From positions 124,001 through 188,000 of the forward strand of contig NZ_JALJVY010000005.1 of NCBI RefSeq assembly GCF_024168485.1: a DNA stretch of 64,000 bases, written 5' to 3'. Each line of letters begins with the position of its first letter. Within the stretch, counting starts at the first letter, position 1. The notes beneath the pieces are model-generated. The model was not told where the DNA came from. It was given only the letters and a program-made list of their open reading frames with translations, and made no database searches. Both the position numbers and the translations under genes were made by a program. This DNA comes from Sphingobium sp. OAS761. GTDB lineage: Bacteria > Pseudomonadota > Alphaproteobacteria > Sphingomonadales > Sphingomonadaceae. Of the stretch, positions 23,165 to 27,484 are shown piece by piece.

Positions 23165-23398
23165 TCAAAGGTCGACGCCGGCGGCGATCGCTTCCAGCTT
23201 GCGGATTCTTTCCTTGAGATCCGCGACCTCGATCCGCGCCGCAGCCGAAGGCGGCGCACTGTCCTCGCCGCGACGACCGAGTTCGGCGCGTTTGAGATCG
23301 AGCCAGCCGTCCCAGGCACGCAACGTCGCGGCGGTCAGCATCGCCAGCCCGACAAGGGCCGTTATCGCAAGGGTCAGGTAAAGATAGGGGTCCTGCAT
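23165..23398 (-). CDS. Psp-associated small membrane/coiled-coil protein, fifth in the array
   Basis: 77 residues. One transmembrane helix (about 6-27, LYLTLAITALVGLAMLTAAT) is followed by a basic linker and a short coiled coil ending in LKERIRKLEAIAAG. It is the shortest and most divergent member: the ERI-x-TD tail shared by its neighbours is reduced to EAIAAG. A good ribosome site (AGGGAGG) supports translation. It resembles PspB in layout but not closely in sequence. Confidence 0.75.
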   Translation of the reverse strand: MQDPYLYLTLAITALVGLAMLTAATLRAWDGWLDLKRAELGRRGEDSAPPSAAARIEVADLKERIRKLEAIAAGVDL

Positions 23399-23426
23399 AT
23401 AAGCCTCCCTGTCGCAGGAACCGCGA

Positions 23427-23678
23427 TCAGTCGCGGTCCCGAAGTTTTTCGAATTCCCGCTCCAGCGCGGTGGAGCCGTCCGTCGCCAGCCGTTCCAGCA
23501 CGGCGACCCGGTCCTTGAGCGCCTTCACCTCGGCGCGCAGCCTTTCCGTATCCGGGTCCGGACCGCGCTGAATGACATCCTCGCCCTTGTGGCGGCGAAC
23601 CACACCATATTTGGCGCGGACGACGCTGGCGATGGCGGTGATCGCGACGATGGCGACGACCATTTCAAACGGATTCAT
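23427..23678 (-). CDS. Psp-associated small membrane/coiled-coil protein, fourth in the array
   Basis: 83 residues. A transmembrane helix (about 5-20) leads into a charged linker and a coiled coil ending with VAVLERLATDGSTALEREFE. The block ERLATD and the LxxEF-x2-LR end match the other array members. It starts after AGGGAG at a good distance and lies 33 bases after the preceding gene. Function is unknown; PspB/PspC-like interaction with PspA is inference from position and shape. Confidence 0.78.
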   Translation of the reverse strand: MNPFEMVVAIVAITAIASVVRAKYGVVRRHKGEDVIQRGPDPDTERLRAEVKALKDRVAVLERLATDGSTALEREFEKLRDRD

Positions 23679-23711
23679 AAGCTCTACTCCCTGTTCGATC
23701 CGGCAACGGCG

Positions 23712-23975
23712 CTAGTTGAGGGGCGCGTCGCGCAGACTGTCGATTTCATCGGCAAGGTCATGGCCGCGATCGGTGGCGATGCGTTCCAGCACGCGGATGC
23801 GCTGTTCCATGCGTTCAATCCCGGCGGCATATTGGGCCGCCTTTTCCGCGCCCAGGCTGGTCTGCGCCTCGATCTGGCGCTCCTTCATGCGGATCCACCT
23901 GACGGCAACCCGCGACAGGATCGCGACGATGGGGATCGCCATGCCCATGATAGGAAAAAAAATTCCGGCGTTCAT
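23712..23975 (-). CDS. Psp-associated small membrane/coiled-coil protein, third in the array
   Basis: 87 residues. The N-terminal hydrophobic helix (about 4-25) is followed by RWIRMKERQ, as in PspB, and a coiled coil ending in RVLERIATDRGHDLADEIDS. This end is nearly the same as the C-terminus of PspC (LADEIESLR) encoded upstream. The ribosome site is AGGAGAA. Probably a cytosolic-facing single-pass protein. Confidence 0.8.
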   Translation of the reverse strand: MNAGIFFPIMGMAIPIVAILSRVAVRWIRMKERQIEAQTSLGAEKAAQYAAGIERMEQRIRVLERIATDRGHDLADEIDSLRDAPLN

Positions 23976-23999
23976 CCGTTTTCTCCTGAAAATCGACGG

Positions 24000-24344
24000 T
24001 CAGTTTGCGGGGCCGCGCAGCCGTTCGATCTCGCGATTGAGCTGATGGCCTTCATCGGTGACGATGCGTTCGATCACCGCCATGCGGTCCTTCACCGAAC
24101 CCAGCTCGGCGCGCAGTTGCGCATTTTCCTGATTGAGCAGCCGGATGCGCTCGACCATTTCGCCATTTTTCTGCGGATAGACCGCCTGGCCCCAGGCGCC
24201 GTCCAGCGGATAGCCGTGGCGCACGCGCAGCCAGGTGGTGAATATCCAGCCGCCGATCGCAATCAGGCCGAGCAACAGCCCGCCGCCGATGATCCACGGC
24301 AGGTTCGGAATGATCACCGCGTCGGCAATGTCGACGTTGTTCAT
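24000..24344 (-). CDS. Psp-associated membrane/coiled-coil protein with RHGYP motif, second in the array
   Basis: 114 residues. A transmembrane helix (about 15-38) ends in the motif FTTWLRVRHGYP, followed by a tryptophan and a long coiled coil (about 60-110) closing with RMAVIERIVTDEGHQLNREI. The RHGYP block is shared with the neighbouring first member, so the two are recent paralogues. AGGGGA precedes the start. Confidence 0.8.
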   Translation of the reverse strand: MNNVDIADAVIIPNLPWIIGGGLLLGLIAIGGWIFTTWLRVRHGYPLDGAWGQAVYPQKNGEMVERIRLLNQENAQLRAELGSVKDRMAVIERIVTDEGHQLNREIERLRGPAN

Positions 24345-24368
24345 GACAGGTCCCCTTGCTTGCCGAGA

Positions 24369-24659
24369 TCAGCGCAGCGCGTCGATGTCGCGCGCGGTGC
24401 GGGCTGCGGGATCGGTGACGATCCGCTCCAGCACGGCGATGCGCTCCTCGAGGCGGCTGATCCGGCCGGTCAGCTTTTCGTTTTCGCTTGAAAGAAGGTC
24501 GATTTTTCGACCGGCGTCGGGATCGTTTCGATGAGCGACGCCCGACCATTCATTTTCCACCGGATAGCCATGACGGGCCCGGATCCAGGTGGTGAACATC
24601 CAGCCCAGCGTCGACATGGCGACGATGGCAATGACGAAGGAGGGGCCACCCAAATTCAT
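24369..24659 (-). CDS. Psp-associated membrane/coiled-coil protein with RHGYP motif, first in the array
   Basis: 96 residues. A transmembrane helix (about 6-24) ends in FTTWIRARHGYP, then a tryptophan and a coiled coil with RISRLEERIAVLERIVTD and a final RDIDALR. It is a close relative of the following gene. It lies 36 bases after pspC and has a good ribosome site (GGGAGAAG). Confidence 0.8.
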   Translation of the reverse strand: MNLGGPSFVIAIVAMSTLGWMFTTWIRARHGYPVENEWSGVAHRNDPDAGRKIDLLSSENEKLTGRISRLEERIAVLERIVTDPAARTARDIDALR

Positions 24660-24695
24660 GACTGCTTCTCCCTGTTATCCGCCCCGGCGCCGCTG

Positions 24696-25070
24696 TCAGC
24701 GCAGGCTTTCGATTTCGTCGGCCAGACGGGTGTTGCGGCTGGTATAATAGACCTCGATGTCAGCCAGGCGGCGATCGATGTCGCGGAACTTTGCCCGGAC
24801 GTCGCGGGTCGAGCGTGCCGGATTGGCGCGCACGCCCTGCCAGAATTTCTCGTCGTCGCGGTCGCTGTAAAGTCCGGCAGGCTTGCTGTCGGCGATCACC
24901 CCGATCGCGAAATAGCCGAGCACCGTCCAGCCGATGATGAAGAAGGACAGGAACATGGCGACCCGGACCCAGACGACATCGATGCCGGTATAGTCCGCGA
25001 TTCCTGCGCACACGCCCAGAAACTTGCCGTTCTGCTTGTCGAGGTAGAATTTGGTGCGGCGGGCGGTCAT
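24696..25070 (-). CDS. pspC: phage shock protein C-like envelope stress protein
   Basis: 124 residues. The N-terminal PspC domain is clear: FYLDKQNGKFLGVCAGIADY, then VWVRVAMFLSFFIIGWTVLG with the transmembrane helix. A cytosolic or periplasmic coiled coil of about 60 residues follows, ending in TRLADEIESLR, the motif repeated in downstream small genes. In enterobacteria PspB and PspC sense inner-membrane damage and recruit PspA away from PspF. The start lies one base after the pspB stop. Confidence 0.93.
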   Translation of the reverse strand: MTARRTKFYLDKQNGKFLGVCAGIADYTGIDVVWVRVAMFLSFFIIGWTVLGYFAIGVIADSKPAGLYSDRDDEKFWQGVRANPARSTRDVRAKFRDIDRRLADIEVYYTSRNTRLADEIESLR

Positions 25071-25071
25071 C

Positions 25072-25338
25072 TCAGTTCCTCCGGTCGAAATCATAATTGT
25101 CGTCTTGGGCGGGACGGGCGGGGCGGAAATCCGGGTTATCGGCGGCGACGATCCGTTCGACCGTCTGCAACCGATCCTCCAGCCGACGGGCGAGAAGGTG
25201 GAGTTCGTCCAGCAGCTTCTCATCCTCGTCGGTGATCTTGGGGGCCTGTTTCCACTTGGTGACATAGTGGAAGATCAGCCAGGGCATGCCGATGAACAGC
25301 ATGCCGCAGATCATGATGGGAACCAGCACGTCTTCCAT
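25072..25338 (-). CDS. pspB: phage shock protein B-like membrane protein
   Basis: 88 residues with a transmembrane helix (about 5-25, ending LIFHYVTKWK) and an amphipathic coiled coil (LARRLEDRLQTVERIVAADN). This matches PspB in length, topology and position. The segment VERIVA is shared with the C-termini of the other small psp-linked proteins. It partners PspC in sensing. Four bases separate it from pspA. Confidence 0.9.
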   Translation of the reverse strand: MEDVLVPIMICGMLFIGMPWLIFHYVTKWKQAPKITDEDEKLLDELHLLARRLEDRLQTVERIVAADNPDFRPARPAQDDNYDFDRRN

Positions 25339-25342
25339 GGGA

Positions 25343-26011
25343 TCACGCTCCCCTGTTCATGTTGGCCTTGAGCGCGGCGAGTTCGGCATCGACCTTGTCG
25401 GATGTCTTCAGCTCGGCAATCTCTTCCTCCAGCGTCTTGGGCTGCTGGCCCATGGACATCGCGTCGGCGCGGCCTTCGGCAATGTCGACGCGGCGTTCCA
25501 GCATGTCGAAGCGGGCAAAGGCCTCGTTCACCTTCTCGCCGGCATAGGCTTCGCGCACGCGCAGCCGGCTCTCGGCGCTCTGCATCCGGGTAACCAGGCT
25601 GTTCTGGCGGGCGCGGGCCTCGCGCAGCTTGGCCTGAAGCTTGGCGATGTCGGCCTCCGACGCGGCCAGCGCCTCGTCCAGCACCTCGATCTCATGGCTC
25701 AGCTGCTCGGCCATGTCGGCCGCCTTCTGCTTTTCGACCAGCGCGGCCTTTGCCAGGTCCTCGCGGTCCTTGCTCAGCGCGAGCTGCGCCTTTTCGGTCC
25801 AGCTGTCCTGCAACGCGCTCAGCTTCGCGATATGGCGGCGCATTTCCTTCTGATCGGCGATCGTCCGGGCCGCGGAGGCACGCACCTCGACCAGCGTCTC
25901 TTCCATTTCGAGGATGATCATGCGGATCATCTTCGCCGGATCTTCCGCCTTGTCGAGCAGGTCGGTGACGTTGGCGGCGATGATGTCGCGGGTGCGGGAG
26001 AAAATACCCAT
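25343..26011 (-). CDS. pspA: phage shock protein A
   Basis: 222 residues, nearly all coiled coil, of the PspA/IM30 family. It opens with the amphipathic membrane-binding helix MGIFSRTRDIIAANVTDLLD, followed by EDPAKMIRMIILEMEETLVE, the conserved region that contacts PspF. It stabilises the inner membrane under stress and represses PspF when bound to it. It is preceded by AGGAGTAGTCAC. It is the first recognised psp gene, but a 57-codon gene lies upstream. Confidence 0.96.
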   Translation of the reverse strand: MGIFSRTRDIIAANVTDLLDKAEDPAKMIRMIILEMEETLVEVRASAARTIADQKEMRRHIAKLSALQDSWTEKAQLALSKDREDLAKAALVEKQKAADMAEQLSHEIEVLDEALAASEADIAKLQAKLREARARQNSLVTRMQSAESRLRVREAYAGEKVNEAFARFDMLERRVDIAEGRADAMSMGQQPKTLEEEIAELKTSDKVDAELAALKANMNRGA

Positions 26012-26095: not shown

Positions 26096-26269
26096 CTACG
26101 CCAGATAGCGCATGGCCGCGGGGCTGTCTTTCGCCGCGAGTATCGGGGCTTCGCTGGCGCGGGCCGGTCCGACCGCCGAAAGGATCATGGTCGATCCGAA
26201 CAGCACGGCGGCGATGGCAACCGACATCAGCTGGCCCGCTTCGCGCACGTTGCTGGTCTGCTTTTCCAT
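26096..26269 (-). CDS. 57-residue exported or membrane protein at the head of the psp operon
   Basis: Short reading frame starting MEKQTSNVREAG, with a hydrophobic segment at about 14-33 (LMSVAIAAVLFGSTMILSAV), then ARASEAP and a C-terminal SPAAMRYLA. The pattern resembles a signal peptide or a single membrane anchor. GGGAG lies 7-8 bases before its ATG. It is the first gene after the sigma-54 promoter and precedes pspA by 84 bases. I do not recognise a family. It is a credible stress-induced small protein. Confidence 0.72.
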   Translation of the reverse strand: MEKQTSNVREAGQLMSVAIAAVLFGSTMILSAVGPARASEAPILAAKDSPAAMRYLA

Positions 26270-26330: not shown

Positions 26331-26347
26331 TTGCAGGGGGCGTGCCA
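26331..26347 (-). promoter_or_regulatory. sigma-54 promoter of the psp operon
   Basis: Read on the minus strand, TTGGCACGCCCCCTGCAA fits the sigma-54 consensus TGGCACG-N4-TTGC with one mismatch and an exact GG-N10-GC spacing (-24/-12). It lies about 60 bases before the 57-codon gene. PspF, a sigma-54 activator, is encoded divergently on the other side, so its upstream binding sites should lie between here and pspF. An inverted repeat CCAATTT-CTA-AAATTGG (26345-26361) overlaps the -24 side. Confidence 0.85.
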
Positions 26348-26449
26348 ATTTCTAAAATTGGCGGATTTCCGTCATTTTTCTTTCAGCTGAGAGCCGTGTG
26401 CCGATATTTCCGTTGCCAAAGGGTGGGAAATTTCACCATAAGTTGGCGC

Positions 26450-27484
26450 ATGGAGAAAAACACCCAATTTGTCGGGCAGTCGTTCGCCTTTCTCGACGCG
26501 GTCGAACAGGCCGGGCGTGCCGCCGAACTCAACCGGCCGGTGCTGGTGATCGGCGAAAGGGGCACTGGCAAGGAACTGATCGCCGAGCGGCTCCATCACC
26601 TGTCCCCGCGATGGGGCGAGCCCCTGATCGTCATGAATTGCGCCGCGCTGCCCGAAACGCTGATCGAGGCGGAACTGTTCGGTCATGAACAGGGCGCCTT
26701 CACTGGCGCTACCAAGACGCGCCCGGGCCGGTTCGAGGAGGCGGACGGCGGCACATTGTTCCTGGACGAGCTGGGCACCCTGTCGATGGCGGCGCAGGAA
26801 AGGCTGTTGCGCGTGATCGAGTATGGCGAAGTGACGCGGATCGGCGCCTCGCGGCCGCTGCGTGTCGACGTGCGCATCGTCGCGGCCACCAACGAGGATC
26901 TGCCCGCCGCCGCCGAAACCGGCCGCTTTCGCCCTGACCTGCTGGACAGGCTGAGCTTCGAGGTCATCACCCTGCCCCCGCTGCGCGCGCGCGAAGGCGA
27001 TGTCGCCGTGCTGGCCGATCATTTCGGGCGGCGCATGGCGGCGGAGATCAACTGGCCGCAATGGCCCGGTTTCACCGCCGCCTGCGCGGCCGAACTGGAA
27101 GGCCATAGCTGGCCCGGCAATGTCCGCGAGTTGCGCAATGTGGTGGAACGGGCGGTCTACCGCTGGGACGAACCGGGCCGTCCGATCAGCCGCATCACCT
27201 TCGACCCCTTTGCCTCTCCCTGGAAACCGCGCCCGTTGATGCAAATGGCCACGGCGAGAGAAGCCGGAGCAGCCGCCTCCCCCCCGCCTCCTTCACCGCA
27301 GGCGCCGGCAGGTCAGGAGGCGGTCACCGACCTCAAGTCCGCGGTCGACGCTTATGAGGCCGCGATCGTGGGCAGCGCGCTGGAGCGGTATCGCTACAAC
27401 CAGCGTGCCACGGCGAAGGGGCTGGGCCTGTCCTATGACCAGTTGCGCCACTGCATGAAGAAACATGGGCTCAGCGCTGGCTGA
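26450..27484 (+). CDS. pspF: sigma-54-dependent activator of the psp operon
   Basis: 344 residues without an N-terminal sensory domain, as in PspF. The AAA+ domain has Walker A GERGTGKE (35-42), the sigma-54 contact loop GAFTGA (82-87), Walker B GGTLFLDELG (about 100-109), and WPGNVRELRNVVERA. A Pro-rich linker leads to a Fis-type helix-turn-helix near the C-terminus (NQRATAKGLGLSYDQLRHCM). The start MEKNTQFVG was chosen because upstream in-frame sequence is non-conserved and overlaps the promoter region. It is divergent from the psp operon and expected to activate it, being inhibited by PspA. Confidence 0.95.
   Translation: MEKNTQFVGQSFAFLDAVEQAGRAAELNRPVLVIGERGTGKELIAERLHHLSPRWGEPLIVMNCAALPETLIEAELFGHEQGAFTGATKTRPGRFEEADGGTLFLDELGTLSMAAQERLLRVIEYGEVTRIGASRPLRVDVRIVAATNEDLPAAAETGRFRPDLLDRLSFEVITLPPLRAREGDVAVLADHFGRRMAAEINWPQWPGFTAACAAELEGHSWPGNVRELRNVVERAVYRWDEPGRPISRITFDPFASPWKPRPLMQMATAREAGAAASPPPPSPQAPAGQEAVTDLKSAVDAYEAAIVGSALERYRYNQRATAKGLGLSYDQLRHCMKKHGLSAG

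Follow-up and report, generated by a model that had tools for sequence, protein, structure and literature searches.

The window studied here, that is, the whole stretch of 64,000 nt from Sphingobium sp. OAS761, lies in contig 5 of a 4.25-Mb genome and carries a Psp operon that continues beyond pspC into an array of five small genes for one-helix membrane proteins, which we named Q1 to Q5 in gene order. PspA, PspB, PspC and the divergently encoded PspF all scored over their NCBIfam cut-offs, and a -24/-12 pattern match of the sigma-54 type was found upstream of the operon. On the minus strand the order was sigma-54-type site, a leader gene of 57 aa, pspA, pspB, pspC and Q1 to Q5, the last ending at 23165. 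Profile comparisons support links of Q1-Q4 both to PspC, whose C-terminal block they carry, and to PspB, which their anchor resembles. The features of the locus are as follows:

26450-27484, plus strand: pspF, divergent sigma-54 activator (TIGR02974, 473.5 bits against a cut-off of 443.55; an inner ATG of the open reading frame (ORF) was picked by eye)
26332-26347, minus strand: sigma-54-type promoter pattern TGGCACGCCCCCTGCA (-24/-12; 10/11 consensus positions)
26096-26269, minus strand: small leader membrane protein gene, 57 aa (ORF with ribosome site)
25343-26011, minus strand: pspA (TIGR02977, 284.7 bits against a cut-off of 242.95)
25072-25338, minus strand: pspB (TIGR02976, 78.6 bits against a cut-off of 51.7)
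24696-25070, minus strand: pspC (TIGR02978, 118.9 bits against a cut-off of 104)
24369-24659, minus strand: Q1, one N-terminal helix, FTTWIRARHGYP juxtamembrane motif, coil and PspC-type tail
24000-24344, minus strand: Q2, paralogue of Q1 with FTTWLRVRHGYP
23712-23975, minus strand: Q3, PspB-like anchor plus coil, PspC-type tail (TIGR02976, E 1.8e-5, below cut-off)
23427-23678, minus strand: Q4, array type with an N-terminal start as in the single members of a sister family
23165-23398, minus strand: Q5, closing gene, coil without PspC-type end

The first-pass annotation, made from the letters alone, had described five short same-strand genes downstream of pspC, each with a ribosome site, and the coordinates bore this out. 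Every one of Q1-Q5 has an ATG start behind a purine-rich ribosome site, and the gaps from pspC through Q5 are 36, 24, 24, 33 and 28 nt. No minus-strand terminator-like site was found between the Q genes of the window; one weak site of this kind lies inside Q1 (24512-24497). The short gaps and the promoter pattern fit one transcript from pspA through Q5, on which Q1-Q5 would be transcribed together with pspA.

A search of genome contigs with Q1 returned at least 171 relatives, of which the best 80 loci were kept; together with the window they make up the 81 loci referred to below. Since these loci were picked by likeness to Q1, the presence of a Q1-type gene is given by construction, but its neighbourhood is not. 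The best matches of Q1 among named genomes were mostly Sphingobium species. All five array proteins of the window have a single N-terminal hydrophobic segment, with a mean hydropathy of 1.8-2.1 over its best 19 residues. In the 81 loci, lysines plus arginines within 15 residues of this segment were more numerous on its C side than on its N side for 89/89 Q1, 60/63 Q2, 61/62 Q3, 77/77 Q4 and 78/78 Q5 proteins, a charge pattern that predicts a cytoplasmic coil for Q1-Q5. In the single-chain AlphaFold model of Q1 (pLDDT 77) an initial helix is followed by a coil helix, and the model of Q3 (pLDDT 86) is a single long helix. One N-terminal helix and a coil had been claimed for all five members, in agreement with the hydropathy of Q1-Q5 and with these two models. 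A fold search with the Q3 model gave no PDB match at E<=10 and is uninformative for a single helix.

The closing block said to be common to four members was found in a relaxed form. Over all six frames of the 64 kb, the pattern [LIVM]E[RK][ILV][ILVA]TD has 4 matches, one each in Q1, Q2, Q3 and Q4, compared with a mean of 0.01 and a maximum of 1 in 200 codon shuffles. The strict form, ERI-x-TD...L-x2-EI-x2-LR, is present letter for letter only in Q2 and Q3, whereas Q1 has RTARDIDALR and Q4 has ERLATD...EREFEKLR in its place. The reduced block attributed to the fifth member did not hold up, as Q5 has no end block. The motif FTTW-x-R-x-RHGYP was found in Q1 and Q2 as described, and so were LADEIESLR at the end of PspC and VERIVA in PspB.

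Homology was evaluated by profile-profile comparison with hhalign, using heptad-preserving column shuffles as controls and PspB and PspC from 7 loci outside sphingomonads as reference. The profiles of Q1/2, Q3 and Q4 matched each other with 98.5-99.4% probability. When the coil-plus-tail parts were compared with the tails of the 7 outside PspC, the probabilities were 93% for Q1/2, 79% for Q3 and 62% for Q4, no shuffle out of 60 reached the score in any of the three, and each match extended to the last PspC column. Matches of the same parts to the outside PspB coil were weaker (75%, 51% and 36%, respectively; 0/60 shuffles each). At full length, the best match among the outside loci was PspB for Q3 (88%) and Q4 (89%), over 61-64 columns, and PspC for Q1/2 (88%). 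A chance coiled-coil likeness of the array to PspB/PspC was rejected by the heptad-preserving shuffles. Within sphingomonads, the coils of PspB and PspC did not match each other significantly (4/50 shuffles reached the score). The coil of Q5 was closer to Q4 (89%, 0/50 shuffles) and Q1/2 (79%, 0/50) and not to Q3 (18%, 1/50).

Like PspC (TIGR02978, PF04024), the array members of types Q1-Q4 have a membrane helix, a coil and an end block of the form V-T-S/D ... L-x2-E-I/F-x2-L reaching the last PspC column; this C-terminal coil and block were found in Q1/2, Q3 and Q4, and not in Q5. Unlike PspC, they come as multiple genes of their own within one operon and have a PspB-like anchor, and the PspC domain with its N-terminal half was not seen in Q1-Q5, none of which matched PF04024 at E<=1. 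With PspB (TIGR02976, PF06667) they share the single N-terminal helix, the positive C side and the coil. They differ from PspB in that Q1/Q2 carry the RHGYP motif and in that the coil is not followed by a PspB-type end: in the 7 outside loci, the majority of PspB proteins close with a D-A-E-x-P-x-W-R-like sequence, whereas Q1-Q4 end in the PspC block. The five window proteins also stayed below the PspB cut-offs. Q3 scored 24.9 bits against 51.7 for TIGR02976 and 16.7 against 25.6 for PF06667, and Q1, Q2, Q4 and Q5 scored lower or had no match. Among relatives, the Pfam PspB model was matched at E<=0.1 by 15/18 Q3 proteins, one of which (L021, 28.2 bits) passed the gathering score of 25.6. TIGR02976 was matched by 15/21 Q4 proteins (best 7e-5) and 9/29 Q1/Q2 proteins, and TIGR02978 by 13/21 and 12/29 (best among the latter 3.8e-5), so that PspB or PspC was the NCBIfam model matched by most members. 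The earlier suggestion of a PspB/PspC-type module in the array is thus backed by profile matches of Q1-Q4 to both proteins, and the profile searches did not place the array proteins in unrelated known families.

The genes pspA, pspB and pspC followed by array genes were found in 80/80 of the best loci and in the window. To avoid the bias of selection by Q1, an alignment of Q5 was searched in 196 genomes of the order. It matched in 111/196, namely in 109/113 genomes of the same GTDB family and 2/83 of other families; these two matches were weak (E 2.3e-5 and 4.8e-5) and were orphan genes away from psp (L133, L134). PspA itself was present in 113/113 genomes of the family and in 71/83 of the others. 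Among 385 sampled genomes of the class, Q1/Q2 matched in the 5 family members and weakly in 4 others; of these 4, one was an orphan relative (G183), two fell within reading frames of 446 aa and 615 aa, and the remaining one contained stop codons. The array marks one GTDB family, and its order after pspC is conserved well beyond close relatives.

Array size was determined in a family sample of 44 loci. The 4 Q5-negative genomes were all included, together with 40 of the 109 Q5-positive ones, which represent every one of the 31 Q5-positive genera; a profile match at E<=1e-3 defined a Q1-Q4-type member. Such members numbered 0 in 4 loci, 1 in 1, 2 in 2, 3 in 10, 4 in 16, 5 in 7, 6 in 3 and 7 in 1. 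Across the window and the 80 named loci the number ranged from 2 to 8 (L060 and L063 end soon after Q2), and the largest array, 8 plus Q5, was that of Sphingosinicella terrae (L068). Q5 was the last array gene in 118/118 loci holding it. PspB was not found in 7/44 loci of the family sample. In nine loci (L014, L017, L018, L019, L027, L029, L040, L045 and L053) the distance from Q3 to Q4 was 161-209 nt, and these wide gaps may hold a further very small gene.

A sigma-54 pattern with at least 9/11 positions was found within 450 nt upstream of pspA in 78/80 loci, compared with 8/317 control stretches inside operons. The loci were the window and 79 of the 80 related ones, L057 being left out because it starts too near a contig end. 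A perfect inverted repeat, GCCAATTT-CTA-AAATTGGC, lies at 26344-26362 of the window, where it overlaps the -24 element of the psp promoter, and is a possible regulator site.

The origin of the array was examined in 52 psp loci, drawn from six further families within the order; PspA is present in 71 genomes of other families. Genes with ERI-x-TD occurred only in one sister family, f180. Ten of its 22 psp loci had the order pspA-pspB-pspC-tail-less pspC-ERI gene, 2 had the tail-less pspC without the ERI gene and 10 had neither. An ERI gene was found in 0/30 psp loci of the other families, two of which (L296, L313) are cut by contig ends; among these 30, L314 has a tail-less PspC before pspB without an ERI gene and L274 has a second PspB. 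In the f180 locus L270, the tail-less PspC matches positions 2-66 of TIGR02978 (E 5.6e-13) and its neighbour positions 40-121 (E 7e-5); by these matches the pair is a PspC in two genes that together span it. Second, tail-less PspC genes within psp operons were seen in L264, L270, L276, L241 and L314. The PspB-like duplicate of L274 (2671-2895, minus strand), in sister family f177, follows pspC and has a PspB-type end. The single f180 member begins with MNPFEMVV, as Q4 does, and for this reason Q4 looks like the oldest array type.

A tree was constructed from 214 proteins labelled by their best-scoring profile (98 columns, with weak deep branches). The types formed clades holding 40/41 Q2 (support 0.999), 36/37 Q1 (0.62), 58/62 Q3 (0.40) and 22/31 Q4 (0.92) proteins, and a joint clade of Q1 and Q2 was not formed at 90% purity. 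By this tree Q1-Q4 are old paralogues, in line with the proposed origin by duplication. Genes from the same locus paired in 1/65 cherries, and recent tandem duplication as the main source was rejected on this count. The other half of the proposal, a shuffling of the module, was not supported as an ongoing process, given this cherry count and blocks of different paralogues that were barely more alike within than between loci (differences of 0.00-0.03 for protein and 0.01-0.03 for DNA in a descriptive comparison). Protein identities within and between loci were 0.402 and 0.401 for Q1-Q2, 0.531 and 0.524 for Q1-Q3, 0.472 and 0.461 for Q1-Q4, 0.422 and 0.413 for Q2-Q3, 0.407 and 0.376 for Q2-Q4, and 0.418 and 0.413 for Q3-Q4, and ongoing tail shuffling or gene conversion was rejected. 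For genes of the same type, again descriptively, they were 0.847 and 0.688 for Q1-Q1 (n=9) and 0.623 and 0.709 for Q3-Q3 (n=18). Two Q3 genes of L084 with a nearly identical C-terminal extension were the single case speaking for recent copying.

The Q genes are under purifying selection. In near-relative pairs, which are not independent of each other, the median Ka/Ks was 0.17-0.28 for Q1-Q5 and 0.08-0.11 for PspA, PspB and PspC, and no pair reached 1, indicating that the Q copies are kept as proteins but vary faster.

A parallel in E. coli bears on the function of the array. According to the accessible parts of PMC3068692, E. coli PspC40-119 (helix plus tail) induced psp in the absence of PspB when strongly overexpressed, and two-hybrid tests showed it to interact with PspA; PspC1-68 gave neither psp induction nor PspA interaction. 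The tail-less PspC and the tail-only proteins described above are similar in extent to PspC1-68 and PspC40-119, respectively. Q1-Q4 may be free-standing PspC tails that serve as extra membrane docking or regulatory subunits for PspA, a reading to which we give about an even chance. It is favoured by the profile matches to PspC and PspB from outside the sphingomonads, the two-gene PspC of f180, the retention of Q5 throughout the family, the promoter pattern, the Ka/Ks values and the E. coli fragment. It is also favoured by G433 (L196), where PspB was not found and just a tail-less PspC was seen, yet Q3 and Q4 have intact tails. Each would consist of a single membrane helix with an anchor resembling that of PspB, a cytoplasmic coil and the PspC end block. 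An ancestral tail gene after pspC would have been duplicated in the ancestor of one sphingomonad family and then lost or kept differently among its descendants. When the membrane is damaged, the entire operon would be activated by PspF and sigma-54, and the tails would offer extra docking sites for PspA at the membrane or extra partners for the PspB/PspC switch. More PspA would thereby be drawn off PspF and held at the membrane, and Q5, which has no tail end, might close or regulate the complex.

Several observations weigh against free-standing PspC tails acting on PspA. The PspB/PspC scores of the array members scanned lie below the curated cut-offs, except for the L021 Q3 in Pfam, and similarly weak matches were obtained to other coiled-coil models (Npun_F5560 in 10/29 Q1/Q2, FtsL in 4/21 Q4). 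Unrelated coiled-coil models also appear at such E-values in single members, so one weak match alone proves nothing. For Q5 there is no convincing link to PspB/PspC: it matched outside PspC at 12.8% over 13 columns without the end block (0/60 shuffles) and outside PspB at 18% over 11 columns (1/60 shuffles), and its homology to the two within sphingomonads was rejected, 14/50 and 25/50 shuffles reaching the score. Four loci in genomes of 2.2-2.5 Mb (L235, L246, L257, L258) keep only pspA-pspC-Q5, with no pspB and none of Q1-Q4 found, and the tails are dispensable there. The sigma-54 pattern lies within 450 nt of pspA in just 33/44 loci of the family sample, all of which have that much sequence. 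Three sister loci (L285, L294, L314) have a tail-less PspC without an ERI-x-TD gene, and the f180 pattern coincides fully with genus boundaries: every one of the 10 loci lacking both genes, and none of the other 12, belongs to genus g322, so that the pattern may reflect one or few events. As to the E. coli parallel, PMC3068692 states in the same parts that the effect of PspC40-119 required strong overexpression, that at basal level only full-length PspC, not PspC40-119, supported induction by pIV, and that PspC may have two topologies.

The strongest reason for caution about readings confined to Psp is that the module also has a life outside it. A search for the Q3/Q4 core in 398 genomes of the phylum gave 51 positives, 19 from the same family and 32 from others, some of them weak. 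One-helix genes with ERI-x-TD were found as orphans both elsewhere in the alphaproteobacteria and in further classes of the phylum (L132, L133, L134, L184-L195), and at 15/15 such places no PspA, PspB or PspC model matched in the 10-14 kb examined. That the orphans are hidden members of the PspF regulon was rejected, since a sigma-54-like site preceded 1/16 of the genes compared with 13/320 control stretches. Having neither psp neighbours nor sigma-54 enrichment, they indicate a module that is not bound to Psp.

Alternatively, the array proteins could act on PspB/PspC and not on PspA, forming mixed oligomers through helix and coil that set the ease of the PspBC switch, with members tuned to different membrane states. 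This is unlikely but deserves attention, as Q3 and Q4 have a PspB-like anchor plus coil, members vary in their helix and juxtamembrane parts but have a conserved tail, and in E. coli self-association of PspB and PspB-PspC contact via putative membrane regions were reported (PMC3068692, accessible parts). However, PspB is not needed as a partner in L196, L197 and L199, where it was not found and 2-3 array genes are kept.

PspG and PspD are effectors that stabilise the inner membrane. The array proteins might do the same themselves, having only promoter and ancestry in common with the switch, which we regard as distinctly improbable. The orphans away from psp would fit such a role, and so would Q5 and the RHGYP juxtamembrane motif of Q1/Q2, for which no counterpart was found in PspB or PspC. 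Yet what Q1-Q4 have all retained is the PspC end block, which lies within the region of E. coli PspC reported to contact PspA (PMC3068692, accessible parts). That the array consists of plain PspB duplicates with a redundant or dosage function and no new mechanism is very improbable. In its favour, PspB duplicates are listed in psp operons (accessible parts of PMC11237479), Q3 and Q4 match PspB and one Q3 exceeds the Pfam gathering score; against it, the paralogue groups are old and kept apart (40/41 Q2 in one clade, support 0.999), Q1-Q4 are under purifying selection, and the members end in a PspC block that PspB lacks.

Under the reading of Q1-Q4 as free-standing PspC tails, one could go further and picture a split Psp sensor, in which the PspC head is present in one or few copies and the PspA-binding tail sits on a set of interchangeable anchors that differ in their membrane parts. 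A single pool of PspA would then read several kinds of damage via a combinatorial receptor closed by Q5. We put this forward tentatively, as a somewhat doubtful extension.

The papers cited below were likewise available in part, and statements on them refer to those parts. The PspF regulon of E. coli comprises PspA-E and PspG, and paralogues of PspA and PspC have been described (PMC9239133). Like E. coli PspD, PspE and PspG, the array proteins would be additional members of the PspF regulon, but no Pfam or NCBIfam match of Q1-Q5 to these was found at E<=1. A 2024 survey mentions PspB duplicates in psp operons, in one clause, and PspC fused to a divergent C-terminal PspB (PMC11237479). The array is like these duplicates in adding PspB-like genes to a psp operon, and unlike them in its PspC tails, its family-wide keeping and its closing gene, which are not described there. 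The main texts of PMC11237479 and PMC9239133 contain no word beginning with 'sphingomonad' or 'sphingomonas', and among the literature matches listed, supplementary tables not covered, no paper on this sphingomonad psp array was found and only PMC11237479 touches the subject. PMC5443232 has just a PspC entry in a prophage table. In Zymomonas, ZMO1062-1065 were up in xylose (PMC8645129) and ZMO1063-1065 under ethanol (PMC3495753, repeated in PMC11186258), and the array genes are not mentioned in these three sources. ZMO1062, which adjoins pspA (ZMO1063), is named pspD in PMC8645129 and called hypothetical in PMC3495753. The product of the window's leader gene (26096-26269) had no Pfam or NCBIfam match at E<=1, and in 73/80 loci pspA is preceded by a short ORF that has a ribosome site and a hydrophobic segment (loose criteria, without control). 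Extra PspB-like genes in psp operons are already known, and the array of PspC tails is a new variant thereof.

To our knowledge, how PspB and PspC sense damage and hand over PspA is still unsettled. In this family, which is much studied for pollutant breakdown, evolution would have multiplied the part of PspC presumed to bind PspA, its tail, and mounted the copies on anchors of their own; some relatives have a head-only PspC beside a tail-only protein or a locus where PspB was not found. Such loci are natural material for telling the sensing part from the PspA-binding one and for asking whether specificity comes from the membrane anchors. A survey that applies the curated PspB/PspC cut-offs will overlook most of the operon, as 0/5 of the extra window proteins pass them. 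The array suggests that sphingomonads split off one working part of the PspC sensor and multiplied it.

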